In this document: one piece after another, positions 4,801 to 49,575 of the stretch | Layout of the letters: the number at the start of each line of letters is the position of its first letter | Numbering within the stretch: the first letter of the stretch is position 1 | Source of the DNA: a virus | Strand: one strand, 5' to 3' | Length of the DNA stretch: 53,175 nt | IMG/VR virus record: IMGVR_UViG_3300023103_000006 | Coordinates: 1 to 53,175 of that record | Made by a program: the position numbers and the translations under genes | Notes under the pieces: generated by a model | Databases searched by the model: none | What the model was told of the DNA's origin: nothing | What the model saw: the letters and a program-made list of their open reading frames with translations, nothing else

Positions 4801-6883
4801 TGAATTTCTTAAGCAATTAGAGATAACAAACAAAGCACAAGAGGAATCAGTAAAGGCAAATACTGAATCAATGGTTAGTCAGTATCAACTACTATACAAG
4901 GCGGTTGAATTTGTATTTAATGAAATTAAGCAAGCAGCATCAAAAGCATTTAGAGCAATTGGAAGTGCAGCCGCAGAATCAAATAAAATATATCAGGATT
5001 TTGTAAAACAACAAAGGAATGCAGAATTAGCAGCCTATAAAACTGACCTAAACTACCGATTAGGATTGATAGAAGGCAATTATGATGCGCAAATTGATTT
5101 GCTAAAAGAGTACTTAGCCAAAGCTGAAGGTGTAATAAAAAAAGTAAATCTATCTGAAGATATAGCAGCACAATTGCAAATATCGACAGAAAAGATAGTA
5201 GGATTTACTAATTATGTATCTAACGAGATAGAGCAGTTTAGTTTGAACCCCTTTACTATGGCTAAAAACGCCTTTAGGCAATTGGGCGTTGCAATAGCTG
5301 GGTGGAAAAAAGAAAATACAGATGCAGCAGAAAAAGCAATAATTGCATCAACAAATGCAATTGAAAATTTACAATGGCAAAGGGATGAGTCTTTAAAACT
5401 ACTCGATGATATAGCGGACACATACAAAGATAAGTATGACGGTATGCTTGATGCTGTGAAAAAGGGATTAAGTGAACAAGTAGACGCTATTAAAGAGGGA
5501 ATGGGCGCATCAATTGATGCAATAAGAAACAGTTTAGACAAGCAAATAGAAATTTTGTCTTCTTGGTACGATGGGCAAAAGGATATAATTACACAAAGGT
5601 ATGCAGATATACTTGATAATAATGTAAGATACACTGATATTGCATTTGAGGAGCAACTAGCTATTTGGAATGCAGCAAGAACTGACCAGGAGAATATATT
5701 AATAGGGCAAAGAGACACCGAAAAAGATATTCTAAAACAAAAATATAAAGAAGGAAAAATTTCTTTAGAAGAATATACGGCACAGGCTAAAGTAGTTGAT
5801 GAGAAATACTTTAGTGATATTTTAGCGTTAAGAACTAAATTTTATGATGATTTACAAGCAAAAACTACACAATATAATAGTGACGAACTTAATAAGTTAA
5901 AAGATAGTTTATCTGCAAACCTTATTACTCAAGAGGAATATGATGCAAAAGTCGGAACGCTTGAAGACTTAGCAAAGCAGCGAAGCGCAGACATAAAGTC
6001 TTTAGTAAGACAAGATAGAGATAAGGACTTATCATTGCTGAAAAGTGACTATTTGGATTTAAAAGAAATGGCTGAGCAGAAATCTGCTGATGCTATACTG
6101 AAAATACAAACAGATTCAGCTACCGCAATAAAAAAAGCAGAAAAAGATGCAGGGGATGAGATTATACGATTAACAACAGAAAGGAACAATAAACTTGCTG
6201 ATTTAGCACGGCAGAGACTGTTAACAGAATTGACATATAATTCTCAGATATTTGAACAACAAAGAGCATTGGCTAATGCACAAGCACTTGTAGCAATGGC
6301 ACAGGCAAAAGCAGAGGCATGGAAGAATCCATTCACGGCAAAGGCGGTAATAGGGCAGATACAACAGGCTTTTGCTGAAATATTTGCGGCTATTGGTTCG
6401 GCAGTGAACCCATTTGACGCTGAGATAGTAAAGTATGTACCAGTAACTCCAGACACAAACAACCCAGTAGAACCGCCTCCAGGTGGAGGAGAAATAGGAG
6501 ATGGCGGAGCTATAAAGATAGCTAAGGGGATAGACAGGCTTCCAAACACTAATGGGAAGGTTGGGGTAGATACGCAGCCAGCAATGTTGGATGTAGGCGA
6601 AAGAGTTATACCCACCTACCTAAACGATATGCTGAAAAGCAAACTAGGCGTAGATGTAACCAACAAGCAATTAGTGAACATGGCTTTAGGTCAATTCGAC
6701 TTTCAAGGAATTGCCAACACGGGAAAGAATGTTTCAAGCACAGACCCTAGATTAGTAAATGCGATAAATGGACTGTCAAAGGAAATGAAGAATCTTAAAC
6801 AGGTAAATGTAAACGTGAAAAACGGAGTGCCGACAATTGAGGAAAGGAGTTATAATAGGATGATAAAATACACTAAACCATGA
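1850..6883 (+). CDS. Tail tape measure protein
   Basis: This 1677-residue protein sets tail length and is carried inside the tail tube. Residues about 150-330 match the N-terminal domain common to tape measures (LRNVLSTQEEYTQSLTFLDN through QAEELRGQLGERLPGAFGLAA). Hydrophobic stretches follow around residues 375-405 and 450-470, suited to membrane insertion during DNA entry. Most of the rest is coiled-coil rich in Lys, Glu, Ala and Ile. Near the C terminus (about 1560-1600) a Gly/Pro linker leads to the segment GERVIPTYLNDML typical of the tail-tip end. At roughly 0.15 nm per residue the tail would be about 250 nm; that figure is inference. It overlaps the frameshifted chaperone upstream and the lipoprotein gene downstream. 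Confidence 0.95.
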   Translation: MNETEIFNFIFKFSEEGATALTQELAELYVQNEKLKNQALEYQSTQRKLNAERKTAAEESKAAAIAEVNSRLGIQNGVKTEIGLIQRLTSEIKLLKSAREQANNVSDVNKYTGAIQAAQKELNALTGVTDKFRGSNGFWQDLKGQVMAYWAAVQVGDVGKTLINNEVRLEALRLALRNVLSTQEEYTQSLTFLDNLSNKYGQDITILTGTYKNFIAASQSSGLELKERNRIYEAIVKSGAALSLSNEEIEGSLRAVSQMFSKGNVQAEELRGQLGERLPGAFGLAAKALGVTESKLNDMLKAGQVLAVDLLPKLATELEKAFGDKAANNVNLVTGAYNRLTNSIKDYFGEANQNYGITDKIAKGFNFLADNLKEVVSIGASVISTIVAYTIASKAAAGASAAWTVIEKAGLIIKGEAILLTKQQSIANATLTDTQLTAAAAAQTFNNTLLKNPIGLIVLAIGTAITAYQLYNASVEDAAEEQKKLNKQITDAIAPLELQKREFNSLANEVLKGVVPLQKQYDTLEALKKQYPELLKGVTSLTEAERILNENKIKVNTQDDYRLEKLEALKAQYPEQLKGINNLKDAEEKLGKVIRDVNADFAVRATLLEAEIKYDINREKATNLIKQQIDAEGKLVNIRKQLSIETKNSLEGREEFISSLREEEKQYQGVINAAKAGVVNLIGVNQSITKIQEDAKKRLKYSTDEVVKITKDGEDKKTKIKADSAATQALIAEKTRITELEKSEVQEQKLLAIDKDIAIQRIKDSKKATQEKASEIYKIEEKFKQDLNRLTQKYDDKEQEDEIKNGTLVAKIRADFRVINEKDEKKSLDAQIKAIEAKYKNEIDIVSKSSKSYSDKKAEITKLVIEEEKELLTIRRQIQFLVDLDKLHKEQSRNIKQITKDILEKWNIQDKVDKEEIEHQRELIKLYDERQKVFGDMVASIVPEIKGLMDYNDAVNNAGRALTNFADQKIKLHDIEKKSGIQSAEFLKQLEITNKAQEESVKANTESMVSQYQLLYKAVEFVFNEIKQAASKAFRAIGSAAAESNKIYQDFVKQQRNAELAAYKTDLNYRLGLIEGNYDAQIDLLKEYLAKAEGVIKKVNLSEDIAAQLQISTEKIVGFTNYVSNEIEQFSLNPFTMAKNAFRQLGVAIAGWKKENTDAAEKAIIASTNAIENLQWQRDESLKLLDDIADTYKDKYDGMLDAVKKGLSEQVDAIKEGMGASIDAIRNSLDKQIEILSSWYDGQKDIITQRYADILDNNVRYTDIAFEEQLAIWNAARTDQENILIGQRDTEKDILKQKYKEGKISLEEYTAQAKVVDEKYFSDILALRTKFYDDLQAKTTQYNSDELNKLKDSLSANLITQEEYDAKVGTLEDLAKQRSADIKSLVRQDRDKDLSLLKSDYLDLKEMAEQKSADAILKIQTDSATAIKKAEKDAGDEIIRLTTERNNKLADLARQRLLTELTYNSQIFEQQRALANAQALVAMAQAKAEAWKNPFTAKAVIGQIQQAFAEIFAAIGSAVNPFDAEIVKYVPVTPDTNNPVEPPPGGGEIGDGGAIKIAKGIDRLPNTNGKVGVDTQPAMLDVGERVIPTYLNDMLKSKLGVDVTNKQLVNMALGQFDFQGIANTGKNVSSTDPRLVNAINGLSKEMKNLKQVNVNVKNGVPTIEERSYNRMIKYTKP

Positions 6884-7095
6884 AGAGGATATTAATAATT
6901 ATTTTGTTGTTTATACCTATTTCCTGTAAAACACATGAAGTAAAGCCTATTGTTAGTAGGAGGGAACAGATTATGCAAAAGTTTAGAGATGCAGGTATAC
7001 ATATCGTATGCTCTCCTTGTCCATGGGATGAGCAAAGTGCGAGTCATGCGCCTACTAGAATTCGTTTCCCACATTACAAAACAGATTCCTTATAA
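6880..7095 (+). CDS. Small predicted lipoprotein
   Basis: The protein has 71 residues. A short basic start (MKR) is followed by a hydrophobic stretch (ILIIILLFIPIS) and a Cys at position 16, a lipobox-like signal for signal peptidase II. The mature part is hydrophilic with a Cys-Ser-Pro-Cys-Pro-Trp motif near residue 45. The ATG overlaps the tape measure stop by four bases (ATGA), so translation is probably coupled. A membrane lipoprotein is odd inside a virion operon. Superinfection-excluding lipoproteins that act on tape measures are known in other phages (for example Ltp of TP-J34), but any such role here is speculation. An alternative is a Rz1-like outer-membrane protein. Confidence 0.75.
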   Translation: MKRILIIILLFIPISCKTHEVKPIVSRREQIMQKFRDAGIHIVCSPCPWDEQSASHAPTRIRFPHYKTDSL

Positions 7096-7098
7096 TTA

Positions 7099-8922: not shown

Positions 8923-11410
8923 CAATCCAATAAGATTTTATAAACTTGACGATTCAGAAGACCGTTACAAAAACTACCATGAGCCTAGAGATATGCGCAG
9001 AGGAGTATTAACGCAAAAACAAGGAGAAACAATTAAATTCTTTGCACCTAAATCTGATTTTGAGGGAATAGATATTAGAACTTTGCAAGTAGGACTATAT
9101 GGTGAAGCGTTTGAAGATTGTGTAAGTTTGGGCTATCAATTATTAGAAGATAATATAGGATTTCTAAGAGAACAACAGTCACGATTCTATTATGAAATGG
9201 TGATTAAGGTCAATAACGCGCCCTCGACTACTTGGAAACAGTTTTCCTTATTACGACCAAACGGACAGCAATTATTCGGAACCTATACAGGACAAGAAAC
9301 AGATTTAGAAACCTACATAAATAATTTAAAAGATTGGCTAGAAGCGTACCCACACACACGGGTTGATGCCTACAAAGAAGGAAACCTAATAAGATTAAGG
9401 GTTTGGGAGTCTGGCAATTTTATAATCAGGAATGAAGAAATAACAGTAGGATTGGGTACGGTATCAGTATTGAACGAGAATAGTCCGACATTGCAAAGAG
9501 GTGCTAAAACTACTTACAACAGACCTGCTTATAATACTTACGACTTAGTAATTGGCAGCGATGTAACCGAAGGCAATATTTTTACTTTAGGTGATGTGAC
9601 TTATACCGCAACCAAGGCAGATACAGCAGCAACGGTAAAAGCTGCCCTACTTGGCAATAATTCAAAGGTAGTTATTAATGTAGGAGATATAATACCAATA
9701 AACGCATCAGTAGGAACTGTAAGAACTGTAAACACGAATAACCCGACTATAAACGACCTTTACAATGATTTGCTGAGCGGAAACGACCGATATATAATAG
9801 AGATAGAGAACGTTCAAAAAGGAAATACATTCCAGGTTCTTAGAAGTGGATTAAGTCCCTTAACTATTAAGGCAAGCGAAACTGACACTAAAGCAACTAT
9901 TGAAGCATTTTTTAATTCAACTGGTGGCTTCTTGGTAGTACCTGCCGGAACAATACTAACAGTAAGCGCAGTTCCTGGCGTTAGAATTGACGACAACACA
10001 AATTCGCCTAGTATCAGTACTGCAAATGCCGTATTAACCCCGGCACAAATGACGGACAGGTGGAGAATATTTGTCGGAACAAGCGTAAGAAAGAATAATA
10101 AGTTCGTATTAGGTGATATTGAAGTAATAGCAGACGAAGACGATACCTATTTAACCATTGCCACAAAGTTAGGTCTAATTGACGGATTGTATTATGAAAT
10201 AGAGGAGGATGGCGTATTTAGTTCTTATGCAGAACGAGGGGAATTGTATGATGATGAAAATATTGCAGATATTCAGATTATATCTTCACCGATTAGACGA
10301 ATATCTCAACAATACCTATGCGAAGTGACTATGCCAGCAGGATACACCGGAAAGGCTCTACAAATAGCAGTTAGCGAGTATTCAAGAAATGACGAAGAAC
10401 AAACTTGGATATTCATTAGAACGGTTGTAGTTTCTAACTACATAAGAATAGAGGTAGACCCAAAAGAAACAGTAATGGTGCGATGTTCTTCATTAGGTGA
10501 AGCGTTTGGATTTGAGTATTTTGAGCAAGGAATTAATCAGCAAATGAGATTCCCTATTTACCTGAGAAATGACGGATACGAAACAACCTTAACTAAATCA
10601 CAAAGCGTAAACGATGCTACAGTAAACGGGAATACGCAACTCAGACCAATTTCTGACTTTCAGGTTTTAGGTTATCCTAGTTGGTTTCACAAATCACTGC
10701 AAACATGGCTTAGAAGCGATGTTGTGATGGTTGATGAAATGAAAATATCATTGATTAATTATGAAGTAAGTGAAGACGTTGGAGCCAAAAAAATACAATC
10801 AGCCAATGGTAGTTTGTATAAAGAAATCGGCATAATGAAGAATTACGGGAAATTATTTCTGGATTATGACAATTTTCAAGAAAAAGTTTCTGTAATAACC
10901 AACTTTAAGAGTAAAATAATTTGTGTTATCCTAAAAAATGACTTATTTTGTCAGGAAGTATTCGAAAGAGGAGAAATATTTATTCCGGTTGGCGAATACA
11001 GATGGAAAGCATGGGTAGGCGGAGCAGTAGGAGATACGGTGGACATGAGAATCTACCAGAATGGAACAAGGATTCATCACGTAACCATGTATTGTGGCAG
11101 AATGAATATGCTAGACTCTTTAATCAGGGTTTACACACACGACGAGTTGTTATTTGAAGAGGTAAGTCAGGAAAACATGACCATTGTAGGTATAGATACG
11201 AAGACCGAAACAACAGTTGCTTATGAAAGTGTAGACTATGCAGACGAAATAGGGGACTACGATAAATTGAATGGATATGTAGCACCATTTGTGCCACCAG
11301 CAGAAACAAATGCCGGACAATGGAGGGATAGAATAGACGAAGACACTAATCTATCGATTGAACAAAATACAGACGAAACGGGTTGGGTACTTAAATCAAT
11401 AATATCATAA
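8909..11410 (+). CDS. Putative tail-tip / receptor-binding protein with three tandem beta domains
   Basis: The protein has 833 residues and belongs to the distal tail module. Three related domains of about 75-90 residues lie in tandem, starting near residues 209, 292 and 381. Each opens with a strand ending in V(T/Q/R)xxNxF, continues with I/V-x-A-x-x-x-D-T-x-x-T(I/V), and the first two end with an Asn-Ser/Asn-Pro turn. The C-terminal half is strand-rich and ends with an A-G-x-W-R-x-R...W-x-x-K-x-x-I-S motif that reappears in the 62-residue protein encoded next. Repeated beta domains suggest a role in surface binding. I do not recognise a named family. Confidence 0.6.
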   Translation: MRLFDNPIRFYKLDDSEDRYKNYHEPRDMRRGVLTQKQGETIKFFAPKSDFEGIDIRTLQVGLYGEAFEDCVSLGYQLLEDNIGFLREQQSRFYYEMVIKVNNAPSTTWKQFSLLRPNGQQLFGTYTGQETDLETYINNLKDWLEAYPHTRVDAYKEGNLIRLRVWESGNFIIRNEEITVGLGTVSVLNENSPTLQRGAKTTYNRPAYNTYDLVIGSDVTEGNIFTLGDVTYTATKADTAATVKAALLGNNSKVVINVGDIIPINASVGTVRTVNTNNPTINDLYNDLLSGNDRYIIEIENVQKGNTFQVLRSGLSPLTIKASETDTKATIEAFFNSTGGFLVVPAGTILTVSAVPGVRIDDNTNSPSISTANAVLTPAQMTDRWRIFVGTSVRKNNKFVLGDIEVIADEDDTYLTIATKLGLIDGLYYEIEEDGVFSSYAERGELYDDENIADIQIISSPIRRISQQYLCEVTMPAGYTGKALQIAVSEYSRNDEEQTWIFIRTVVVSNYIRIEVDPKETVMVRCSSLGEAFGFEYFEQGINQQMRFPIYLRNDGYETTLTKSQSVNDATVNGNTQLRPISDFQVLGYPSWFHKSLQTWLRSDVVMVDEMKISLINYEVSEDVGAKKIQSANGSLYKEIGIMKNYGKLFLDYDNFQEKVSVITNFKSKIICVILKNDLFCQEVFERGEIFIPVGEYRWKAWVGGAVGDTVDMRIYQNGTRIHHVTMYCGRMNMLDSLIRVYTHDELLFEEVSQENMTIVGIDTKTETTVAYESVDYADEIGDYDKLNGYVAPFVPPAETNAGQWRDRIDEDTNLSIEQNTDETGWVLKSIIS

Positions 11411-11598: not shown

Positions 11599-12608
11599 TG
11601 GCCGTAAATGCAGCGCAAATAGTCGAAGGACATTATCAAGGTTCTGCCGAAGTCATTGTAGAATGTGATGAAGCAGACGGAACCGACATTGTAGTATATA
11701 GGTATGTGAACGGAACCGCTACATTAGTAGGAACAGCAGAACTGGGAAACGATACCGGATTAGGAAGTGGCAAATCAAGAGTACCATTAACTGAGAATAT
11801 TTCAATTGGGAATCAGTTAGTAGCTTATGTTGAGGAAAGATGGAAGCAAGGAGGCGACCCAGTTCCGGTTTACGAGTTATCGGACGGATTAAGAACCGGG
11901 TGGCGTGGCCCTGACGTAATTTATCTGGATGGTGATGTAGAAATTAGCTACGAGGAGTACCAACAATTAGGAGGGCAGGAAATAGCAAGTGTCTATGACC
12001 CACAAGCCACGATAAACAATACAGTAAACAGATGTGGCGATGCGCCCAAACAATTTGCAGATGCTACTTTAATACTAGAAAAAACAACGGCAGATTTAGG
12101 CGCAGGAGTGGTAAACGTAGAATACGCAACAATAGGGAACTTTAATCCGGCTTTAGGTGCAGCACGTGTGCAATGGGATGGCGGAGCGATTACGCAGGAC
12201 TATCAACAGACTTTTGTATTTGCAGATAATGGAGCGCACGTTGTGAAAATATATCCAGAGAACTTGGATTACGAAACAAAAGAATTTCCTTTTACGGTTT
12301 CAGTAGCATCAGGAACGCCAGCCCCGGCAGTAGCAGATATAAGAGCAGTAGCGTACGAAATAAATCCGGCCGCTAACAGACAGGTAACTGTATTAGCGTA
12401 TTCGGATAGACAACTAGAAAGCAGAGTAGTAGGATTAGACGACGGAGTACATGGTTCAGGAGCATGGGTTGCAATGAGCGGTTCAACTGGCGGCAAATGG
12501 CAACAACCTATTCCTTTTCAGAATGTGCCAAACGGCAATTATAGTGTAGATTGCAGGGTACAAGGCACAGTAACGGTAGTAACAGTAGCTTTAAAAGTTG
12601 ATTTCTAA
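11598..12608 (+). CDS. Putative tail fibre / appendage protein with beta-sandwich domains
   Basis: The protein has 336 residues and begins in the stop codon of the preceding gene. Almost all of it is predicted strand and turn. It appears to comprise an N-terminal beta domain (1-95), a central region with a possible PKD or Ig-like fold (about 150-230, ending in DYETKEFPFTVSVASG), then a Pro/Ala linker and a C-terminal Ig-like domain (about 245-336). No enzyme motif is seen. Its place at the end of the tail module suggests an accessory fibre or tail-surface protein. Confidence 0.55.
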   Translation: MAVNAAQIVEGHYQGSAEVIVECDEADGTDIVVYRYVNGTATLVGTAELGNDTGLGSGKSRVPLTENISIGNQLVAYVEERWKQGGDPVPVYELSDGLRTGWRGPDVIYLDGDVEISYEEYQQLGGQEIASVYDPQATINNTVNRCGDAPKQFADATLILEKTTADLGAGVVNVEYATIGNFNPALGAARVQWDGGAITQDYQQTFVFADNGAHVVKIYPENLDYETKEFPFTVSVASGTPAPAVADIRAVAYEINPAANRQVTVLAYSDRQLESRVVGLDDGVHGSGAWVAMSGSTGGKWQQPIPFQNVPNGNYSVDCRVQGTVTVVTVALKVDF

Positions 12609-12620
12609 ATAAAAAATATC

Positions 12621-12875
12621 ATGGCAGATAATAAAGACGAAATAAAAGAAGCTACGCCTTCAAAAGAAGAGGCTAAAGCTCAGAAAAAGAAAATATTAAA
12701 ATGGACGCACGATATTACGGGCGGCAAGGTCTTGTTTGAAACACAAGGGTATGGAGAAAAGGAGAAAATCAAAGTTGAGATTAACGGAAAAGAAGAAGAG
12801 ATTGAAAACTATGGCAATCTGGCTATTTACTCACGAGGTGCAAGTTTCAAGGAGTTTCCGGCAGTAAAATATTAA
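12621..12875 (+). CDS. Small charged virion-operon protein, unknown
   Basis: This 84-residue protein has a Lys/Glu-rich N terminus (residues 1-27, likely disordered or helical) followed by a strand-rich part (KILKWTHDITGGKVLFETQG). It lies directly before the candidate major tail protein. Its acidic/basic low-complexity start and beta second half resemble small head or tail accessory proteins, but no family is recognised. Confidence 0.75.
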   Translation: MADNKDEIKEATPSKEEAKAQKKKILKWTHDITGGKVLFETQGYGEKEKIKVEINGKEEEIENYGNLAIYSRGASFKEFPAVKY

Positions 12876-15839: not shown

Positions 15840-16142
15840 ATGGCAAAGAATAAAGAAGAAGAAGGCACACCAATTGGGTTATCTGAAAAAGAGTTTTTTG
15901 CAAGAAAAGACCTTTTGGAAAAGAAAGCACGCATCTATGTAGAAGTAGCGGAAGGCAGAGGAGAAGACGAAAAAGGTAAATCTATCGTGATGTACCCGGC
16001 TAAAGAAATCGAAGTACAGCCAGCTTATTGGAGTACTATTTTACGAGACAAAGAGACGGGCGAACCAATGAAAGAACAAAAGTTAGTTGGCTACAAGATT
16101 GAAGAGAACGGAGAAATGAAACATTATAAATTTAAAGAATAA
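15840..16142 (+). CDS. Small protein between portal and scaffold, unknown
   Basis: This 100-residue, highly charged protein (many Lys and Glu) has a central strand region (ARIYVEVAEG, IVMYPAKEIEVQ). It is packed tightly between portal and scaffold genes with A/T-rich spacers and no Shine-Dalgarno. Its place suggests a head-assembly or head-tail role. No family recognised. Confidence 0.7.
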   Translation: MAKNKEEEGTPIGLSEKEFFARKDLLEKKARIYVEVAEGRGEDEKGKSIVMYPAKEIEVQPAYWSTILRDKETGEPMKEQKLVGYKIEENGEMKHYKFKE

Positions 16143-16144
16143 AT

Positions 16145-16987
16145 ATGAAATTAGGCACAGTAATTAACGAGTTCGCAAAAAAGGCAGGACTTGATTTGAC
16201 TAAAATCAAAGACCTAGTAGACGAGCTGAACGCATCTGACAAGCAAATTGACGATGACGTAGCAACACAACTACAACAAAGCCTTTTGACCGAATCGGAA
16301 GCAGAAAGCCGATTCATGAGCAAACACAAAAACGGTCTTTTGACTCAAGGAAAAAAGGAAGCATGGGACGATATAGACAGGAATCATGCGGAAATTATTT
16401 CTCTGTTAGACGCAGAAGACAAAACCAAATTCGATGCACTGAAGACTACAAAGGAAAAAGATAAATTTCTTTTCAACTTCTTTATCGAAAGAAAGATAAC
16501 CGACAAGGATTCTTTAGCAATCAAAAAAGCGCACGACACCTTGTTGTCGAAGATTGACACGGATTACGTGCCTTTATCAAAACACAAAGAGCTAGAAGAC
16601 AAGTATAAACCAAAGGCGGACAAAGCGTTTTTCAGCGAATTTGTAGTTGATGCCGTAACAAATAGTAAAATATCTGAGACTTTTAAATCAAATAAAAGAT
16701 TCAGAACAAATTTAAAAACAGATTTTGATGAACTCCTGACAAAAAGGGGCTGGACTGTAAATACTGAAACCGGAGAGTATTTGGATAAGGAAGGCTTGCC
16801 TGTTTTGAAAGGAAGTGAAAAAATGAATAACAATGATATTCTTGACGAACTTATGGCAAGTGACGAAGAGTATCTCAAAAAGTCTAATGGTAAACCTGCA
16901 AGTGGGGAAATAACAGTTGATGTACCAAAGGTGAACGGAAGTAGCCTTTTGAATAATCCTAACTATAAAAACCTTGTGAGGCAGTAA
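16145..16987 (+). CDS. Putative capsid scaffold protein
   Basis: This 280-residue protein is rich in Lys, Asp and Glu and mostly helical, with a long charged middle (residues 60-170) and a flexible C terminus (SGEITVDVPKVNGSSLLNNP). It lies immediately upstream of the major capsid gene, where scaffolding proteins are encoded in most tailed phages. Such proteins guide procapsid assembly and then leave. Its composition resembles Gp20/Gp14-type scaffolds, but the evidence is position and composition only. Confidence 0.65.
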   Translation: MKLGTVINEFAKKAGLDLTKIKDLVDELNASDKQIDDDVATQLQQSLLTESEAESRFMSKHKNGLLTQGKKEAWDDIDRNHAEIISLLDAEDKTKFDALKTTKEKDKFLFNFFIERKITDKDSLAIKKAHDTLLSKIDTDYVPLSKHKELEDKYKPKADKAFFSEFVVDAVTNSKISETFKSNKRFRTNLKTDFDELLTKRGWTVNTETGEYLDKEGLPVLKGSEKMNNNDILDELMASDEEYLKKSNGKPASGEITVDVPKVNGSSLLNNPNYKNLVRQ

Positions 16988-17031
16988 TGCTAATTGGCGC
17001 AATTTAATCTTTAAAAATTAAACCAACGACA

Positions 17032-18288
17032 ATGGCAAATAATGTAAATTTAGGTGCAGCCCGGGGGCTGTATGCAGCAATTCTGCATGTAACAAATAAC
17101 TATTACCGATTCACTAACGTAGGAACAACAGGCGCATTGCGTGACCCAGCAAGTAAGCAGATTCAGGACGCAACGAATCCTTTTTTGCTTCAGAATACGA
17201 GCGGAACGACGATTGGTTACGCAGCAGGAACAAGTAACGGAAAACTTACTTTAACGTGGACGCCAGCTTATGCAGGTGGTTATCGTACTTCACGTATCGG
17301 AGCAGGTGGGGCAGCAGATTCAAATGGTGTAAAAACTATTCAGGCGGCACAAAGTTTGGTTTTCAACTTCGACAAAGTAATTGAGTTTGAAGTAATTCAA
17401 CCTTTGGCAACGGCAGATTTCTTTTTGGAGCCTTTGACTATCGAGTATTTGGATAAGTTAGAAAATCCAAAATACATGGTTGAGGCTTTGAACGATGGTA
17501 GATACACAGGAACTCGTGCGCAACTTGTAAGAGTGGGTAATGAAATAATGCGTCGTCTGGACAGAGACATGTTGATTCCGATGGATGATGATTTAATTGC
17601 GACTGTGGCAACTGGAGTAGGACGTAATGTAGCCTATCCTTGGGATAGCACCAATGGAACTTTAAATGCGCCAATCACGCAGATATATGCTTTCAAAGCG
17701 GACGGCACACCGGATGCTGATTTCTGGAACTACATTCAGAACAGTTCTCGTGATAACCGCTACGAAGGTAAAGCGATATTTGTTGGCGGTTCTAAAATGG
17801 CTCAGTACATGCAATTAAAAGGCATTGTAGGGCTTGCAGATACCGGGTATAAGTTAGATGCTCAAATTGAAAATCTTCCTGTACACTGGTATTATGATGC
17901 ACGTATTGACACTATCTTGGGACAAGACGAGTTCTTGATGTGGGATTCTGGCGCAGCAGCTTTGCAAACATGGCTTAATCATAGCACTTACGGAACTGTA
18001 AGACAAAAACGCTATGCAAACATGGATTACGGCAATATGAATGTAACGGTAGGACAATATCGTGGTATCGGATTAGATGGGAATCTTGACAAAGACAATA
18101 TCTCTTTAGATATGGACGTTCGTATTTTGGAAGGTAGAGATTCTGCCGATTATCCAACAAGCCGTGTAGTGCCTTCGATTAACTACGGTGTATTTATGCG
18201 CCCGGTTGGTTACTTCACTTCTGACAATACCGACCCTTTGTATTACATGACTGGTATTTTTAGAGGAAAACTTTTAACAAGGGCTTAA
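17032..18288 (+). CDS. Major capsid protein (HK97-fold, inferred)
   Basis: The protein has 418 residues. It follows portal and scaffold-like genes with a 44-base A/T-rich leader of its own. The central part has the features of an HK97-type subunit: a long helix with IEYLDKLENPKYMVEAL and TRAQLVRVGNEIMRRLDRDML (about 135-185), a domain with KAIFVGGSKMAQYMQLKG (about 240-265), and a C-terminal strand region that ends in a peptide containing GVFMRPVGYF. No protease gene is visible nearby and no N-terminal delta domain is obvious, so maturation cleavage may be absent. Confidence comes from gene order plus fold-like features. Confidence 0.75.
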   Translation: MANNVNLGAARGLYAAILHVTNNYYRFTNVGTTGALRDPASKQIQDATNPFLLQNTSGTTIGYAAGTSNGKLTLTWTPAYAGGYRTSRIGAGGAADSNGVKTIQAAQSLVFNFDKVIEFEVIQPLATADFFLEPLTIEYLDKLENPKYMVEALNDGRYTGTRAQLVRVGNEIMRRLDRDMLIPMDDDLIATVATGVGRNVAYPWDSTNGTLNAPITQIYAFKADGTPDADFWNYIQNSSRDNRYEGKAIFVGGSKMAQYMQLKGIVGLADTGYKLDAQIENLPVHWYYDARIDTILGQDEFLMWDSGAAALQTWLNHSTYGTVRQKRYANMDYGNMNVTVGQYRGIGLDGNLDKDNISLDMDVRILEGRDSADYPTSRVVPSINYGVFMRPVGYFTSDNTDPLYYMTGIFRGKLLTRA

Positions 18289-18292
18289 TATT

Positions 18293-19096
18293 ATGGGGTT
18301 ACAGCAAATTCAAATAGACGGAAAGAACGGCGTTTACTTTGTTTTTGAAGAAAAGCAAAGATGGACAATCTACGAGGTACTCGGTCAAATGACTGGCTCT
18401 ATTGATGAGTATACTTCTTTGCAAGATTTACAAGTAAATAATCAAACACGTTTAGTTGGATTTGCTGTAAAACCTAAAATTGGAGACAACCCTTATATTG
18501 GAGGATTTGAAGAAATAAAGCCAGTACAGCCAATAGCACCACAGCCTCCAGATGTGCCGGGCGATTCAGGGTTTATCCTCAATGTGCTGCCATGTGCAAG
18601 CGAAAAAGCAACCGTTTCAATACTTAACGAAGGCTTAACAAGAAAAAAGCCGGGTACGGTTGAATTTCAGCTACTTTTGTTTTCGCTGACCTACGTTAAA
18701 GAGTATTCAGACAAAGGGCTTTTGGCTAAGTGTGATTATGACTTGATAGGAGAAGACGGCAAGATGTATGTAAGTATGCGTCAAAAACAAGGTGCAATAG
18801 CAGGTGGAGACTGCCCAAATAACCACCCACGCTTTGAAGATAATGTGCCAGGATTAGGAAAGTATGATTGTAAGGTATTTTTACCTAAAATAGACTATAC
18901 TCTTAGAATGTGGAATACAGGAGAAACACCTATAAAGCCTTGGTTACACCACCCGGGCAAACAAAGTTCAGATATTTATGTAGGAAGACTGGAAAAATAC
19001 AATGAAGTAGAGGTGTTTATTTCTAAGAACGAATTTACAGGTGCTGACCACGAAAACACCATCAAGATTAACGGTAATTGTGTATATGATATGTAA
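18293..19096 (+). CDS. Virion-operon protein following the capsid gene, unknown
   Basis: The protein has 267 residues with an alpha/beta N-terminal part (1-75), a Pro-rich linker (PVQPIAPQPPDVPGD, about 83-97) and a C-terminal domain with four scattered cysteines. It lies four bases after the major capsid stop and so is likely translated at high level. A head decoration or head-fibre base protein is possible. No signal peptide is present, unlike the next three genes. No family recognised. Confidence 0.65.
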   Translation: MGLQQIQIDGKNGVYFVFEEKQRWTIYEVLGQMTGSIDEYTSLQDLQVNNQTRLVGFAVKPKIGDNPYIGGFEEIKPVQPIAPQPPDVPGDSGFILNVLPCASEKATVSILNEGLTRKKPGTVEFQLLLFSLTYVKEYSDKGLLAKCDYDLIGEDGKMYVSMRQKQGAIAGGDCPNNHPRFEDNVPGLGKYDCKVFLPKIDYTLRMWNTGETPIKPWLHHPGKQSSDIYVGRLEKYNEVEVFISKNEFTGADHENTIKINGNCVYDM

Positions 19097-19165
19097 CTTT
19101 TGAAACTATAAGAGTATCTTTTGCTGTAAAATTTGTCAGATTTTACACATTTTAAAAACAGTTTT

Positions 19166-19846
19166 ATGAAGTTCGTTTTCTTTTTGCTAATTACATTAAA
19201 AACGTATGCGTCTATTGAGATAGATACAACATTTAATCCACCGGGTGATACTACTTCACCAACTGCCAGTATGTACCTGTTAGAATTAGCAGGAAAAGCA
19301 AAGTTTAAAGATTCAGTAAGGTTTCAGTACTTAACAAGATTCTTAGATGTAGCACATTTTACCAACGCATTGATTGAGACATTAAGATTACCAATAGCGG
19401 ACGGGATTTTACAAGTAAGTGAACAGAATGTTTTTTCAGGTGCGATAGCAGCTACGCAAATAGGTAGCGTATCAACCGGAAGGGTCACATTCGGAGATTC
19501 TACTCATAAACTAACAACAAGCGAGCTATTCCGCTACGAAGATTCAACCGGGACATTATTTGTACCTAATATAGTAATAGGTGAAGGAAGTTCTGAAGGG
19601 CTAAGGATAGGAGGAGGATTTGCTAAGATAAAAGGAAACTACACAGCAGATGATAAAATAGAAACAATTTTTGTTGATACAAGTGATGATAAGATAGAGA
19701 TAGACTTGAAACCACCTAAAAGAGAGGGCAAGTCTATTTTTATTAAGAGAGTAAAAGGAAAACACAGTTTTATAGTAAATAAAGAGCATAAAGCAAAAGA
19801 CGACATTAAATTAATATGGGACGGAAACACATGGATAAGACTATGA
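19166..19846 (+). CDS. Secreted fibre-associated protein, unknown
   Basis: A start at the ATG at 19166 gives 226 residues beginning MKFVFFLLITLKTYAS, a clear Sec signal peptide with likely cleavage after YAS; the longer reading from a TTG at 19133 is less likely. The mature part is strand-rich, with LQVSEQNVFSGAIAATQIG in the middle and a C-terminal beta domain (KGKSIFIKRVKG-like, then KDDIKLIWDGNTWIRL). The C-terminal fold resembles collars or tips of fibres in Bacteroidota phages. The stop overlaps the next ATG by four bases. A signal peptide on a presumed virion component is unusual. Confidence 0.65.
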   Translation: MKFVFFLLITLKTYASIEIDTTFNPPGDTTSPTASMYLLELAGKAKFKDSVRFQYLTRFLDVAHFTNALIETLRLPIADGILQVSEQNVFSGAIAATQIGSVSTGRVTFGDSTHKLTTSELFRYEDSTGTLFVPNIVIGEGSSEGLRIGGGFAKIKGNYTADDKIETIFVDTSDDKIEIDLKPPKREGKSIFIKRVKGKHSFIVNKEHKAKDDIKLIWDGNTWIRL

Positions 19847-22800
19847 AATTACTAAAATATATATTATTACTTCTTCCTTTCTGGTCTTTTGCCCAAAGTG
19901 GAACTACCCATACAGGTAAAGTAAATATTAACAATGGCACTACTACTCCTACTGAAAGATTGTACGTGAATGGTACTTCTCGTTTTATTGGGGCTATTCA
20001 AATGAACGCTTACACAAATGGGGTATTAACAGTGAATGGCAGTGGTGTAGTTGGTGTTTCGGCAGGTGGTAGTGTTCCGGCAGCAGGAGCAAGTGGAACC
20101 GTTTTGACTTCAAATGGAAGTACTTATTCATGGAATTTGCTTACTAATACTAACATTGCCGCAGGAGCAGCTATTACGCAATCTAAAATTGCGAACCTAT
20201 CGGACTCTTTAAATGCAAGATTAAGGCTATCTGGCGGAACTATGACAGGGAATCTTACGCTTAGGTATAGCGTTCGGGTAGGTGGTACAAGCCTTTTTGG
20301 GTATAATACATTTTTAGGCAAAAATGCACTTATAGCGTACACCTCCGGTAGTAACAATACAGCAATAGGTGATGCAGCTTTGTCCGTTCTTACGACTGCT
20401 AATTATAACACAGCCGTTGGAGTTAGTGCGCTTAAAAATACTAATGCAACCTCTAACACAGCAGTTGGCGCAAGTGCATTAGAATCTAACACTTCAGGAG
20501 GGTATAATGTTGCAATGGGTATGAATAGCCTAATATCTACAACTACTGGACAAGGTAATGTAGCAACAGGATGGAATGCTTTAGGCAGCAATGTAAGCGG
20601 TTCGGTTAATACGGCTGTCGGGTATGGGGCAGGAAGATATAACTTAGGGAGTAATAATACTTACTTAGGTAGTTTTTCTGGATTAGGCTTTGAAAATCGC
20701 TCAGGAAGGATTTGGATAAGCGATGGACAGTCTAACGTTAGAATCATGTCAGATAGTCTTGGAAACGTAGGAGTGGGAACGAATAGCCCGACTGTTAGAT
20801 TACAAGTGGCTGGTGATTTTACCGTAAGTGGCGCAATCAACACGACACTAAGTAATGGATATGGAAAAATAACTTCTGGAGTATTAGGTTCGGTGTCTTC
20901 TATTCCGGTTTCCGACATAACTGGTACGCTGCCAGTAAATAAAGGTGGTACAGGAGCGGTAACGCTAACTGGATACTTAAGAGGAAATGGAACGGGTGCA
21001 TTTAGTGCAGTAAACTCGATTGATTATTCAGACGTAACATTCCCGGCAACACAAATACCATTCGGAAGTGCTGGGGGGTTTCTTGCTAATAGCGCCGCCT
21101 TCACTTTTGATAGCGGACTAATGAGTGTAGGGGCTGTTAATGCATCATCTTACGTTACTGTTGGAGGAGGGATTAGAACAGGGGCTTTAAGTTATATAAG
21201 AGGACAGGCAAACCTTTATGGTGGAACAATTTATGCTGACAGTACGGGCGCAGGGTATAATCATAGGTATAGAACAAGAATTATAAATGTTGGAGGCGTG
21301 GGTACCTACTCAATTGACTATTCATTAAATGGAGGTATTTTTACTTCTGGAATTTTCAATATAAGAGGTTCTAACGTTGGTATTGGAACGGATAATCCCT
21401 CAACAAAGCTACAAGTAGTTGGTGATGTAAATATATCCACTACCCTAGTTGTGGGTGGGAGGTCTACACTAAACGGCATAGATATTTGGAGAAACGGAGC
21501 GTCTACAAACAATAATAACATTGCCATTGGGGCAAATACATTTACGGCACTTACTACTGGTTTAAGAAATGTTGCTTTGGGCGATTCTTCGTTGAGATTA
21601 AATACCACAGGCGCACAAAACACAGCAATTGGGTACCGGGCAATGGAAAATAATACAACCGGAGGATTTAATGTAGCGATTGGCGGAAATTCCGGGAGAA
21701 GTGCCAATGACGGACTATCTAATAACACCTATATTAATTTTAACGGAGCAGGCGTAACAACGGGGAATAATGTATTCATAGGGGATGGTAGTGCTGTAAG
21801 GATACGAGCCAATTCTACCGGAGACGTAGGTATTAATACAGGTACAAATACGCTTTTAGCTACTGGGGGAGGTCTTGATATTGCAAGTGGATTACTAGCT
21901 GAAGTAGGTGGAGCAAATACAAACTCATCATCAGGACTTAGAACAGATGCAACGAGTAAGGTATTCAGAAAAGGAGCAGTACACTATACAAATGCAGAAG
22001 AGCCAGTGGGAATAGTGATGGTTTCAAGCACAGCAACAAGCGGCATACTAAACTGGGGCGGAGGTTCTACTGCAATGAACGCACCAACACAACAAAGATT
22101 CTATACAGCTGCTAATAATACAACTGTAACAGGAACAGAAAGAATGCGTATTGATAGCTTAGGGCAAGTAGGTTTACCTACAACTGTTATGGGTAGGACT
22201 ATTTCAGTAAACAAGTTAATAACTGGCGCAACAGTATCTTATGGAATTAGCAATGCCGGGGTGACGCAATCAGATGTTACTTCTGCTTCTATTTATTATG
22301 CAACAAACGCAAGCACGGCAGCAGCTTCTTATACCGTACCTAGCTTATATCACTATTACGCTATACAGGGAACAGTAGGGGCAGGAAGTACGGTAACAAA
22401 TCAATACGGTTTTTATGTTGATGCCGGAGCAACAGGAGCGACTAATAACTACGGATTACGCTCAGATTTAGCAGCTTCAACAGGTCGTTGGAACGTTTTC
22501 ACTGGAACTGCTCAGAGTTATTTTGGTGGAAAAATTGGAGTCGGAAGCGGAAAAACAGTTCCAGTATATGATGTTGATGTGAACGGGGTTGTTGGTGCCA
22601 ATAGATTTGTAAGTCAGGGGTCTGCACCTACCATTTCTGCGGGCGCTGGCGCAGGAACAATACCTGCTATTGCACTAGCAGCAGGAAGTACAGACAATTG
22701 GTTTCAAGTGCAATTGGTAACCGGAACATCTCCATCGGTCAGTTCTGTAGTGGCTACTATTACCTTTAGTGGTGGCGCTTATTCTACCGCTTCATTTGGA

Positions 22801-22956
22801 GGATGTAGTCCTGTAAATTCGGCAGCCGCTACGCTGAGTGGCGCAAATCAGGTGTTTTTCACGAATACGACGACAACTTTAGTTATAAATTCAAACACTA
22901 CCGCTTTGGCATCCGGCACAGACTATCGTTGGAATTGCTGGGCAGGGGGTAAATAA
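19843..22956 (+). CDS. Large fibre/adhesin with two YadA-like beta-roll regions and signal peptide
   Basis: The start at 19843 (ATGA overlap) gives 1037 residues with a Sec signal peptide, LLKYILLLLPFWSFAQ. Two blocks of the left-handed beta-roll repeat N-T-A-(I/V)-G-x-x-A-L lie at about residues 171-265 and 558-630, as in trimeric YadA-type adhesins. Each block is linked to a segment of the form (V/I)GT(N/D)xPT/S(V/T)(R/K)LQV(A/V)GD (about 311 and 513). A C-terminal domain rich in Ser/Thr/Ala with two Cys follows. No S74-type chaperone is seen. The protein is probably trimeric and binds surfaces; it could be a tail or head fibre or, given the signal peptide, an adhesin displayed on infected cells. 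Confidence 0.8.
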   Translation: MKLLKYILLLLPFWSFAQSGTTHTGKVNINNGTTTPTERLYVNGTSRFIGAIQMNAYTNGVLTVNGSGVVGVSAGGSVPAAGASGTVLTSNGSTYSWNLLTNTNIAAGAAITQSKIANLSDSLNARLRLSGGTMTGNLTLRYSVRVGGTSLFGYNTFLGKNALIAYTSGSNNTAIGDAALSVLTTANYNTAVGVSALKNTNATSNTAVGASALESNTSGGYNVAMGMNSLISTTTGQGNVATGWNALGSNVSGSVNTAVGYGAGRYNLGSNNTYLGSFSGLGFENRSGRIWISDGQSNVRIMSDSLGNVGVGTNSPTVRLQVAGDFTVSGAINTTLSNGYGKITSGVLGSVSSIPVSDITGTLPVNKGGTGAVTLTGYLRGNGTGAFSAVNSIDYSDVTFPATQIPFGSAGGFLANSAAFTFDSGLMSVGAVNASSYVTVGGGIRTGALSYIRGQANLYGGTIYADSTGAGYNHRYRTRIINVGGVGTYSIDYSLNGGIFTSGIFNIRGSNVGIGTDNPSTKLQVVGDVNISTTLVVGGRSTLNGIDIWRNGASTNNNNIAIGANTFTALTTGLRNVALGDSSLRLNTTGAQNTAIGYRAMENNTTGGFNVAIGGNSGRSANDGLSNNTYINFNGAGVTTGNNVFIGDGSAVRIRANSTGDVGINTGTNTLLATGGGLDIASGLLAEVGGANTNSSSGLRTDATSKVFRKGAVHYTNAEEPVGIVMVSSTATSGILNWGGGSTAMNAPTQQRFYTAANNTTVTGTERMRIDSLGQVGLPTTVMGRTISVNKLITGATVSYGISNAGVTQSDVTSASIYYATNASTAAASYTVPSLYHYYAIQGTVGAGSTVTNQYGFYVDAGATGATNNYGLRSDLAASTGRWNVFTGTAQSYFGGKIGVGSGKTVPVYDVDVNGVVGANRFVSQGSAPTISAGAGAGTIPAIALAAGSTDNWFQVQLVTGTSPSVSSVVATITFSGGAYSTASFGGCSPVNSAAATLSGANQVFFTNTTTTLVINSNTTALASGTDYRWNCWAGGK

Positions 22957-22965
22957 AACAAACAC

Positions 22966-23757
22966 ATGAAAACCATTTTACTTTTGCTCGTGAGTACCTG
23001 TATTTTTGCACAAACACCAATATCAGGTATTGATTACACATTAACCAGAACAGTTGACAATACAGTTAATAACTATTTCAACGTAGGGACTATTAAGACA
23101 ACAGGAATGAGCGTAGAGGTAATAATTTCCTGCAATTCTGCTACCTGGCCTTCGAGTAAAAGATATAACTTCCAATTAGGCGGAAACCCCTATACTGGCT
23201 GGATGAAAGTACCAAGTTCTAATAATTCTATTGTGACTGACTGGGATTTACAGATTTATATGTACGGTGATTCGACCCAGCTAAGAGTAAAGAATGTTGC
23301 ATCTCATGGCGGAACGGTACCTGTTAATATAACGATTTCGGCAAATGGAAATACAGATGCCAAATTCTATCCGAATGCCGGAACTGGTAGTGATGCAAGC
23401 AATTTGTATACTTATATTTCGTTTAATCCTGAGATAATAAGCAGTTCTTTAGGATTTAAGCCGTACTCTAATACAGCGACTACTACAAGTGGGGTAGCTA
23501 CTTTTTATTTGACAAGCGACAAAACGGCGGGTGGAACGGCTTTGTATGGCACAAATGTTTATCCTAATATTGTGGTGAATGATGCGGCGGCAAATTATAC
23601 TTACGGGTGGTCATTAAGCGGAGATAAAAAGACGTTAACAGTGACGACGAAGGTAAGTTCACAAAATGTAGTGGCATTGGTAGGGCTTACACTAATAGGA
23701 GTTCCGGCTAATGTGCCTAATGGAACTACTGTTTATTTAACTTGTTTTGGATTATGA
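22966..23757 (+). CDS. Secreted beta-rich protein, fibre-associated, unknown
   Basis: The protein has 263 residues and starts MKTILLLLVSTCIFAQ, a Sec signal peptide with likely cleavage before Gln or Thr. The rest is strand- and turn-rich, with many Thr, Asn and Val. A domain in the first half contains RYNFQLGGNPYTGWMKVP, and a C-terminal Ig-like part holds NYTYGWSLSGDKKTLTVTT. It lies between the large fibre and the endolysin and likely acts with the fibre. The last codon overlaps the endolysin start. No named family is recognised. Confidence 0.65.
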   Translation: MKTILLLLVSTCIFAQTPISGIDYTLTRTVDNTVNNYFNVGTIKTTGMSVEVIISCNSATWPSSKRYNFQLGGNPYTGWMKVPSSNNSIVTDWDLQIYMYGDSTQLRVKNVASHGGTVPVNITISANGNTDAKFYPNAGTGSDASNLYTYISFNPEIISSSLGFKPYSNTATTTSGVATFYLTSDKTAGGTALYGTNVYPNIVVNDAAANYTYGWSLSGDKKTLTVTTKVSSQNVVALVGLTLIGVPANVPNGTTVYLTCFGL

Positions 23758-24320
23758 TAATCAAGCAAAACTTTTTTGATATTGTACGAAAGGAATTAGG
23801 CAAACTCAATCAAAGTCAGGTTGATGGTTTTGATTTTATATTAGATTCGTTGACTAGTCAGGACGAGATTAAAGACTTAAGGCAGTTTGCTTATATCTTA
23901 GCTACTATCTGGCATGAGACAGCCAGAACTATGCAGCCTATTGAAGAGTGGGGTAAAGGTAAAGGACACGATTACGGCAAACCTGACCCCGTGACTAAAC
24001 AGGTTTATTACGGCCGTGGATATGTACAAATAACTTGGAAAGACAATTACCAGAAGTTTGCTAACATCTTAAATATCAACTTAGTAGGTAAGCCGGAACT
24101 GGCACTACAAAAAGAAGTAGCTATTAAAATATGTTTGATAGGCATGAAAGAAGGACTATTTAGGGCTAGCCATAAACTTGATATTTATTTCAACGAAACT
24201 AACGAGGATTGGATAAATGCCAGACTAATCATAAATGGGAAAAAGAAAGGCGAAACGCTACCCGACAAAGCAAAAGAAATAGCAGAATACGCAAAGATAT
24301 TTTATAAGGCGTTGATATAA
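23754..24320 (+). CDS. Endolysin, glycoside hydrolase family 19 (chitinase/lysozyme-like)
   Basis: The ATG at 23754 overlaps the previous stop and gives 188 residues; the longer TTG start at 23742 is less likely. The GH19 signature is clear: a catalytic Glu in W-H-E-T-A (residues 53-57), a second acidic pair in PIEEWGKGKG (62-71), and YYGRGYVQITWKDNY (85-99), equivalent to the YYGRGxxQLTWxxNY motif of class I chitinases and phage lysozymes. It should cut the peptidoglycan glycan chain at lysis. No signal peptide is present, so release would depend on a holin, probably encoded in the 30-32 kb operon. Confidence 0.9.
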   Translation: MIIKQNFFDIVRKELGKLNQSQVDGFDFILDSLTSQDEIKDLRQFAYILATIWHETARTMQPIEEWGKGKGHDYGKPDPVTKQVYYGRGYVQITWKDNYQKFANILNINLVGKPELALQKEVAIKICLIGMKEGLFRASHKLDIYFNETNEDWINARLIINGKKKGETLPDKAKEIAEYAKIFYKALI

Positions 24321-24329
24321 ACACAAAAT

Positions 24330-24361
24330 CCGCTTAGTAGCGGACTTGTGGGTTAACCCAA
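24330..24361. terminator. Two adjacent hairpins; possible terminator for leftward transcription
   Basis: A 6-bp stem, TCCGCT-TAGT-AGCGGA (24330-24345), is followed by a perfect 12-base palindrome, TGGGTTAACCCA (24350-24361). Read leftward, the first stem is followed by TTTTGTG, giving a weak intrinsic terminator for the leftward cluster ending at 24896. Read rightward there is no U run, so late transcripts could pass into the 24460 gene. Confidence 0.45.
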
Positions 24362-24396
24362 AAACTAAAACTGATATTTCCCTATCGAATCCAAAC

Positions 24397-24434
24397 CACC
24401 TTTAATCCAACTGAGAAGTGGGGTTTAAAAGGTG
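24397..24434 (+). other. Imperfect hairpin in leader of the spanin-like gene
   Basis: CACCTTTAA-T-CC pairs with GG-TTTAAAAGGTG across a 12-base loop, with a one-base bulge. It ends 25 bases before the ATG at 24460 and may influence translation or processing of that mRNA. No promoter of the usual form is evident between here and the endolysin gene. Confidence 0.4.
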
Positions 24435-24459
24435 AAAACAAATATAAACAAAAAATCTT

Positions 24460-24906
24460 ATGCTCAAAATACTTTCGTTCTTTTCTTTGGAAAGAATACT
24501 TTCAATAGTTTCGCTGATTGGTATATTCTATCTAACACGTGATGTAGTAAGCTGCCAGAAGAACAAAGTAATAAGTAAACTCGATAAAGAGATAATCAAA
24601 AAAGATGAAATTATAGTATCAAAAGATTTAGTTATCACTCAACTACAAAAAGACACCTCAGAATACCGTCAGAACTTCGCTATATCAAGTATTCAGATAG
24701 ACTCTTTACAATCTATGGTTCAATACTTTTCAAAGCGTGATAGAGCCTTAAAACGTGATTTATTAGAATCACAAGAATCAATGAAACACGCAATAGATGA
24801 AGGGATAGTAATTTGTGATACTTTATTCGTAAAGCCCGTTAATTTATTCAAAAAAGGAGCTTATAAGCGCATTCCTAAATCAGAGATAAGAGAGATTAGG
24901 GATTAG
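24460..24906 (+). CDS. Membrane-anchored coiled-coil protein, candidate i-spanin
   Basis: The protein has 148 residues. An N-terminal membrane segment lies at about residues 12-28 (ILSIVSLIGIFYLT), followed by a long charged coiled coil (about 35-115, many Lys, Asp, Gln and Ile) and a basic C-terminal tail. This is the architecture of inner-membrane spanins, which connect to the outer membrane and disrupt it at lysis. The gene directly follows the endolysin, which supports the role. No small outer-membrane lipoprotein partner is seen next to it. The last 11 bases overlap the convergent gene on the other strand. Confidence 0.6.
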   Translation: MLKILSFFSLERILSIVSLIGIFYLTRDVVSCQKNKVISKLDKEIIKKDEIIVSKDLVITQLQKDTSEYRQNFAISSIQIDSLQSMVQYFSKRDRALKRDLLESQESMKHAIDEGIVICDTLFVKPVNLFKKGAYKRIPKSEIREIRD

Positions 24907-25111
24907 GCTTTTTGATATAATAATATGTTCCAGCAAATCTTGAATGTGCGTATCCCTTTACTTCGTCTTTTTCGTCTACCATATATTTATAGCTATTATC
25001 TATAACAATATCGCCTTTTACTGTGTTTAAATTATTCTCTGTTTGAAACTTGCAAGCCTCTTGATAAGTTACTTGAACAAATTCTTCTTTGTTTATTTTG
25101 TAATTTTTCAT
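24896..25111 (-). CDS. Small protein, unknown
   Basis: The protein has 71 residues with mixed composition and a Tyr-rich C-terminal part (GTYYYIKKP). It is the last gene of the leftward early cluster and its 3' end overlaps the convergent late gene by 11 bases. No family is recognised. Confidence 0.65.
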   Translation of the reverse strand: MKNYKINKEEFVQVTYQEACKFQTENNLNTVKGDIVIDNSYKYMVDEKDEVKGYAHSRFAGTYYYIKKPNP

Positions 25112-49161: not shown

Positions 49162-49575
49162 ATGAAGAAGATTATAGGACTCTTGGTTTTACTTTCATTA
49201 TCACTCTGCTCTTTCGCTCAAACCGCCCCTACTCTTGTAGCTTCCGGCACAATAACTAATACAACCTACTCTTATAAGGGTTACACATTAGGTACAGGTG
49301 TAGGTGGTAATGTGTTGTATCAAATCGTGGCAACAAGAACATCAGGCACAACTACCGGGGGTATCCGGTTGGAATATTCAAACGATGGGGTTAATTATGT
49401 TGCGATACCAAGCGCAGATACGCTAGCGATTACAAACGTAGCAACAGCGCAAACAAAAACTATTCCTATCGCTATTCCAGCCGCTAAATTTGTTCGGGTA
49501 CGTGGTCAACTAGCAGGTACAGGGGTTTATACCTATGCTTTATATGCGAATTATAGATATAATAGTAAGCCGTAA
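49162..49575 (+). CDS. Secreted small beta-rich protein, unknown
   Basis: The protein has 137 residues with a clean Sec signal peptide (KKIIGLLVLLSLSLCSFAQ) and a strand-rich mature part (NVLYQIVATRTSGTT, VRVRGQLAGTG, YTYALYANYRYNS). The end is Tyr-rich. It is the first gene of the late block, before the small terminase. The signal suggests export to the periplasm or cell surface rather than virion packaging. No family recognised. Confidence 0.65.
   Translation: MKKIIGLLVLLSLSLCSFAQTAPTLVASGTITNTTYSYKGYTLGTGVGGNVLYQIVATRTSGTTTGGIRLEYSNDGVNYVAIPSADTLAITNVATAQTKTIPIAIPAAKFVRVRGQLAGTGVYTYALYANYRYNSKP

Follow-up and report, generated by a model that had tools for sequence, protein, structure and literature searches.

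According to the textbook view, tailed phages assemble their tail fibres in the cytoplasm. In the accounts consulted, as far as they extend, phage proteins that use the Sec pathway belong to other settings: the coat proteins of filamentous phages are part of membrane-assembled virions, and the exported endolysins, with a signal peptide (SP) or a signal-anchor-release (SAR) sequence, are lysis enzymes, neither being tailed-phage fibres. Lom of phage lambda, although a signal-peptide protein encoded among tail genes, is an outer-membrane protein of the cell and not a fibre. The present analysis concerns a 53,175-nucleotide stretch of viral DNA (IMG/VR record IMGVR_UViG_3300023103_000006, positions 1-53,175; 35.5% GC; hereafter the window), in which three adjacent genes at 19166-23757 are read, with confidence that we put at about even, as a cassette of Sec-exported receptor-binding fibres or spikes, whose products would join the virions after export, at lysis.

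The closest counterparts are runs of exported proteins at the tail-fibre position of the Cellulophaga phages phi10:1, phi19:1 and Nekkels (Assiduviridae), phi18:3, phi19:3 and phi46:3 (Pachyviridae), Ingeline (Duneviridae) and phiSM/phi3ST:2. These follow, like the window, the Q-rule of Bacteroidetes, whose signal peptidase I (SPI) substrates have the same signal and, in 71% of cases on average, Q at position +1, which is capped by glutaminyl cyclase (PMC5837995 and PMC10653852, in the sections available); those substrates, however, are host envelope proteins, and the word ‘phage’ occurs 0 times in the available text of PMC5837995. In four of the Cellulophaga phages several of the run proteins are recorded in virions by tandem mass spectrometry (MS/MS), but they have no convincing homology to those of the window. 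Ordinary tail fibres and spikes (PHROG 4636; those of SPO1, cyanophage, Pelagibacter phage and immuto) share beta-roll repeats and modular, variable bodies with the product of gene 19843, but differ at the N-terminus, which is free of a signal peptide in those proteins of immuto, phi40:1 and phi17:2 whose fibre or lyase modules recur in the window or Cellulophaga proteins, and in the related fibre modules of contigs L007-L009, L011 and L012. One sentence of Bartlau 2021 (PMC8776804, in the sections available) attributes ‘signaling peptides’ to proteins in Ingeline and Nekkels that include a lyase, with no virion or assembly reading there, and the available part of a study of rumen phages (PMC5723332) mentions signal peptides in two Bacteroides phages, fibres not being named in it. 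The open PMC literature searched, itself seen in part and with the subscription literature outside that scope, gave no description of a tailed phage whose structural proteins are exported by Sec.

A reading of the window from its letters alone (the sequence-only reading) had proposed Sec signal peptides on the proteins encoded from 19166, 19843, 22966 and 49162. All four open reading frames (ORFs) are present at these positions, and the prediction that they encode N-terminal Sec/SPI signal peptides, and thus exported proteins, is strongly supported by the leader sequences. The rule applied demands K or R, then a 9-mer with a mean Kyte-Doolittle hydropathy of at least 2.0 and without D, E, K, R, H, N or Q, and small residues at -3 and -1 of the cleavage site. 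Of 78 window genes, with proteins that have further membrane segments set aside, three pass, namely 19843 (leader MKLLKYILLLLPFWSFA), 22966 (MKTILLLLVSTCIFA) and 49162 (MKKIIGLLVLLSLSLCSFA), and all three have Q at +1 (A/Q, the slash marking the predicted cut), the Bacteroidetes pattern. When the N-terminal residues were shuffled 2000 times, the mean was 0.51 SPI passes and 0.038 passes with Q, and three were never reached; the rule favours Q sites, equally in the real and the shuffled sets. The 19166 leader (MKFVFFLLITLKTYA, followed by S) fails the rule because of a K in its c-region, but that of its ortholog (MKYLLFLLITFQANA, followed by H) passes, so that the proposed set of four signals stands, three by rule and one via the ortholog, with Q at +1 in three of the four and 19166 outside the Q-rule. 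As a check, the rule picked Lom, Rz, Rz1 and the lipoprotein at 46459-46752 in phage lambda, along with some spurious unannotated ORFs and 0 annotated head or tail genes, and a single small gene in Pelagibacter phage Kolga. No C-terminal secretion domain of the type IX secretion system (T9SS) was found in the four proteins (Pfam at E<=1, NCBIfam at E<=0.1), so that nothing predicts their crossing of the outer membrane.

The first gene of the cassette (19166..19846, + strand) encodes a predicted exported protein of 226 residues with a leader at 1-15, for which Pfam and PHROG gave no meaningful family match; its ortholog in the related contig described below (12129-12872 of stretch L037) is 42% identical overall. 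The second (19843..22956, +) encodes a 1037-residue tail-fibre- or spike-like protein, laid out as a leader (1-17, SFA/Q), a conserved anchor (approximately 18-75), a variable body and a moderately conserved tip (approximately 960-1037). It is the only one of the three that resembles recognised tail fibres: it matches the PHROG 4636 tail spike family (2e-25) and two virion structural families, and 67 phage records match it in parts by tblastn, many of which are recorded as tail fibres, tail spikes or structural proteins. The sequence-only reading had described YadA-like beta rolls in this protein; beta-roll repeats are indeed present at 172-256 and 559-610, with eight N-x-A-[IVM]-G matches, but they match phage tail fibres, and no Pfam family was found at E<=1, YadA head and anchor domains included. 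The third gene (22966..23757, +) encodes a fibre-like protein of 263 residues (leader 1-15, IFA/Q), predicted to be all beta at low confidence (predicted local distance difference test, pLDDT, 49). The tip of its ortholog (L037 15798-16574, 46% identical overall) matches phrog_17509 at 1e-13. A similarity of the 22966 model to the phage tailspike 6c72 (E 5e-3, TMq 0.28) was not used, the model being poor. Sequence searches of the PDB returned nothing useful, and no relatives of 19166, 22966 or 49162 were found in INPHARED.

How these proteins vary between phages is seen by comparison with contig 3300022911_000005 (G001, examined as stretch L037), whose putative major capsid protein (MCP) is 91% identical to that of the window and which has the same gene run, endolysin included. 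All four signals are retained there, the leaders of the 19166, 19843 and 22966 orthologs ending in FQANA/HLLE, FVSLA/QSGT and FGIFA/QVPL, in this order and followed by the endolysin. Identity between the 19843 proteins is 83% in alignment columns 1-60, falls to mostly 15-40% beyond them and is 30-45% at the end (36% overall), and the 22966 proteins are 55-61% identical in the first 120 columns, their C-terminal half being replaced (about 21%); for comparison, the MCP value stands beside 80% for the lysin and 66% for the protein encoded at 8909. Such a conserved signal and anchor with a divergent body is, on sequence grounds and for the one ortholog pair available for each of 19843 and 22966, what is seen in receptor-binding fibres. 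The ortholog of 19843 lacks the beta-roll repeats, and the middle of this protein has, therefore, been exchanged. Searches of IMG/VR found the related contig alone with the 19843 anchor and with the MCP, one contig with the terminase, one with 49162 (two with an alignment as the query), and none with 22966 or 8909, while at the DNA level no near relative of window positions 16000-25000 is present in INPHARED. The fibre retrieved seven IMG/VR contigs of 47-61% GC, with a signal on none of the five that have a listed matching ORF (L010 and L013 have no complete matching ORF among those listed). Scans of genome contigs, able to detect close relatives only, gave none for 22966, one Yonathbacteria metagenome-assembled genome for the fibre, and no Bacteroidota relative. 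Beside the tail-fibre-like gene of L009, a contig that is not Bacteroidota-like, a glycine-rich protein with an alanine-rich, signal-like start is encoded at 6864-9299.

The presence of comparable proteins in virions is documented by the GenBank notes of the Cellulophaga phages, where proteins are marked as structural ‘based on experimental MS/MS proteomics’, here read as annotation. Among 71 such proteins of six phages, these being the ones complete in the stretches examined (parts only of phi10:1, phi19:1, phiSM and phi40:1; rows noted ‘part of structural virion’ are counted, and phi19:1 gp096, phi14:2 gp077 and phiSM gp32, cut by stretch ends, are omitted), the rule detects a signal in 11, every one of them with an [AGS]Q site. 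They come from four phages (phi10:1 gp091-094, phi18:3 gp085-087, phi19:1 gp101-103 and phiSM gp08) and are products of terminal tail-fibre or lyase genes, the exported genes being contiguous in phi10:1, phi18:3 and phi19:1. The remaining 60, among them portals, major capsid and tape measure proteins, fail the rule, and phi14:2 and phi40:1 have no carriers among 18 and 5 proteins, respectively. The phi19:1 protein gp101, a lipoprotein by rule, is read as YINA/Q, and gp104, with an apparent non-Q signal (FSFG/K) that fails the rule, is not among the 11. Across 40 listed genes of the Cellulophaga cassettes, the window and G001, a hydrophobic core is found in 36 and an [AGS]Q site as well in 34. 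The proteins also show exchange: phi10:1 gp093 and phi18:3 gp086, of phages assigned by taxonomy to different families, are 83% identical over residues 1-118 with nothing detectable beyond, the same start recurs in phi19:1, phi19:3, phi13:2, Nekkels and phi46:3, and phi10:1 gp092, phi18:3 gp085 and gp8 of phiSM/phi3ST:2 are related.

Some further exported proteins of Cellulophaga phages may be recorded here. Small ones with Q near the leader end lie outside the fibre cassettes of four phages (L015 23531-23845, L020 31090-31383, L021 19945-20238 and L016 9-266), three of them sharing a TYxVxGDKxxKVE-like start. A 1094-residue protein with GDSL esterase and carbohydrate-binding domains (7154-10438 in both L017 and L023) has a region like phi10:1 gp095 and is recorded as a pectate lyase, with no MS/MS mark.

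The sequence-only reading had left three options for the exported proteins, namely display on the infected cell, recruitment to virions after export, and capture from a host adhesin system; recruitment is the best supported, proteins with like signals being noted in Cellulophaga virions by MS/MS. According to this scheme, the cassette genes would yield preproteins, which Sec would carry across the inner membrane and SPI would cut; in 19843 and 22966 the cut would expose a Q, to be capped by the host as pyroglutamate. The proteins would then fold in the periplasm, apart from the heads and tails assembled in the cytoplasm, until, at lysis, the contents of the two compartments are mixed by holin and endolysin and the fibres dock onto the virions. 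Processing, presence in the virions of this phage and attachment at lysis are what we infer; periplasmic maturation with docking at lysis is proposed as the most economical way to combine export signals with virion presence, and the position of the cassette next to the endolysin gene fits late expression. Held more tentatively, with confidence somewhat short of even, is the broader idea that some Bacteroidota tailed phages finish their virions outside the cytoplasm and that export cassettes move between phage families; its content, put forward with equal reserve, would be that receptor-binding fibres, and perhaps proteins of the capsid surface, pass through Sec, receive a pyroglutamate cap, fold in the periplasm and dock onto heads and tails at lysis. 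That signal, anchor and exchangeable tip form a mobile module among phage families of the same hosts is, likewise, a possibility that we would rate somewhat below an even chance.

Several observations weigh against post-export assembly. Many Bacteroidota phages are without such a cassette: it is found in four (phi10:1, phi18:3, phi3ST:2 and phiSM) of 14 chosen without the phi10:1 query, the others being Arctus_1, P12002L, immuto (part), phi14:2, phiST (part), phi40:1 (part), 11b, 6H, RAP44 and B124-14, with phiSM also covered in part and phi3ST:2 and phiSM alike in gene order and coordinates. The stretches of phi19:1, phi19:3, phi46:3, Nekkels_1, Ingeline_1 and phi17:2 were picked via a match to phi10:1 gp093 and are, thus, not independent; that of phi17:2 has no cassette. 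Homology between the exported proteins of the window and those of the Cellulophaga phages is negligible (one match of 39 residues, E 0.007), and the parallel, therefore, rests on architecture. The virion evidence consists of notes on other phages, and the MS/MS notes may themselves be compatible with co-purifying membrane or secreted proteins. Attachment at lysis is a proposal, processing is predicted from the leaders, and 19166 departs from the Q-rule.

According to the main rival, the infected cell retains the proteins in its periplasm or exposed at the surface, where they would block superinfection, mask receptors or promote adhesion. Real export signals are what it needs, and lambda offers a precedent in lom, which lies between J and the side-tail-fibre genes (PMC12309495, in the sections available) and is found by the same rule. 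We nevertheless regard it as unlikely, since proteins of like architecture are noted in virions, the conserved-anchor, variable-tip pattern and the tail-spike PHROG match point to fibres, and no T9SS domain was detected by Pfam or NCBIfam; the sole hint of superinfection exclusion, a weak match of 49162 to Cor, spans residues 1-39 and was rejected because it mostly covers the leader. Release as free, soluble adhesins or depolymerases that clear capsule and debris or act as decoys, with the virion signal due to adsorption, would suit the lyase and GDSL domains of some Cellulophaga cassette proteins and the adjoining lysis gene, but several consecutive proteins of this kind are recorded in virions of several phages, and the combination of conserved anchors and swapped C-termini points to a fixed partner for docking, which makes this explanation improbable. 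If the hydrophobic N-terminus remained unprocessed and served, within the tail, as a helix for docking or as an anchor, the proteins would never leave the cytoplasm and the Cellulophaga virion notes would call for no special route; the leaders, however, combine K/R, a hydrophobic core and small residues, 34 of the 40 listed have the [AGS]Q site, and they drift while the Q stays, and a Q that follows a small residue is not something that a docking helix would explain, so that very little weight is given to it. Least probable of all, and hardly to be expected, is the capture of a secreted host adhesin with its signal and with no virion role: beta-roll repeats and SFA/Q leaders may resemble those of Bacteroidota surface proteins, but the repeats match phage fibres, the position of the cassette is kept in the related phage, and the two genome scans, sensitive to close relatives, showed no Bacteroidota source, leaving this third option of the sequence-only reading without support.

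If assembly after export is true, one step of it takes place at or after lysis, the periplasm is where the fibres fold, and tips that cut or bind sugars could be kept out of the cytoplasm by the phage. It would also bear on how phages of different families come to carry one signal-plus-anchor module, and the simple sequence rule (an SPI signal plus Q near tail and lysis genes) would be a way to find the receptor-binding proteins in Bacteroidota phages, a group of proteins that is difficult to annotate.

The fourth signal-bearing gene, 49162..49575 (+), had been counted with the fibre-like proteins and placed among virion genes, but it lies just before the terminase genes, away from the fibres, and its product, of 137 residues with a leader at 1-19 (SFA/Q), is, as judged from modelling, not a fibre, the mature part being a predicted jelly roll. 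Orthologs in two contigs are 92% and 64% identical (leader ends VFSFG/QTAP in the third contig and SICSFA/QNPV in G001), with Q retained in all three sequences. Between the window and the third contig, 8 of 19 leader positions and 3 of 118 mature positions differ (p=4e-6), which is, as far as sequences tell, typical signal-peptide drift. A three-sequence AlphaFold model (pLDDT 68.8) gave, in a fold search, high ranks to phage cement proteins, with 3j4u_H at Z 9.4 (root-mean-square deviation 3.0, 110 aligned, aligned from model residue 21 to chain residue 1) and those of KHP40, Carin1 and KHP30 at 9.1, 8.6 and 8.4; unrelated jelly rolls (BclA, C1q, 4-1BBL) score alike, at 8-9.5. The Pfam family Bbp16 is matched by all three orthologs (best E 4.4e-4), with the window protein, at 13.2 bits, below the cut-off of 27.1. 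Bbp16 we take to be the cement protein of BPP-1, with which the PDB title ‘chainmail secured by jellyrolls’ is consistent. The best BFVD match is a 139-residue phage protein (29% identical over 136 columns). The 49162 product may, thus, be a capsid-surface protein using the same export route, a weaker case than that of the cassette, and it differs from the capsid cement proteins (BPP-1 Bbp16, KHP30/KHP40, Carin1), jelly rolls like the predicted fold of its mature part, in its Sec signal and its place by the terminase.

A further, probably exported product had been missed when four were counted: a gene at 6880..7095 (+), directly after the tape-measure gene (1850-6883, PHROG profile) and before the next structural gene, encodes by its sequence a probable lipoprotein of 71 residues (LFIPIS/CKTHE). 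It is probably exported but is left outside the fibre cassette, because a scan of the corresponding stretch of the related contig found no similar lipoprotein. The boundary between cassette and lysis gene is marked by the GH19-like endolysin (23754..24320, +; PHROG 181 endolysin, 1.2e-33; Pfam GH19 1.5e-4, below cut-off), whose start overlaps the end of 22966. By gene order, 17032-18288 presumably encodes the MCP, and the terminase lies at 50109-51506 (PHROG profile). The Q-rule, the GC content and the similarity of the tape measure to those of flavobacterial phages (it is, however, also similar to those of many other phages) suggest a Bacteroidota-like host; this assignment rests on these three features because the count of the promoter motif TAnnTTTG was uninformative, the 92 matches against 78 expected being reached by seven shuffles and giving no evidence. 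Elsewhere in the window, 37312-39684 encodes a primase-like protein that matches the model of CRISPR-associated primase-polymerase type B at 8e-20, below the cut-off of that model.

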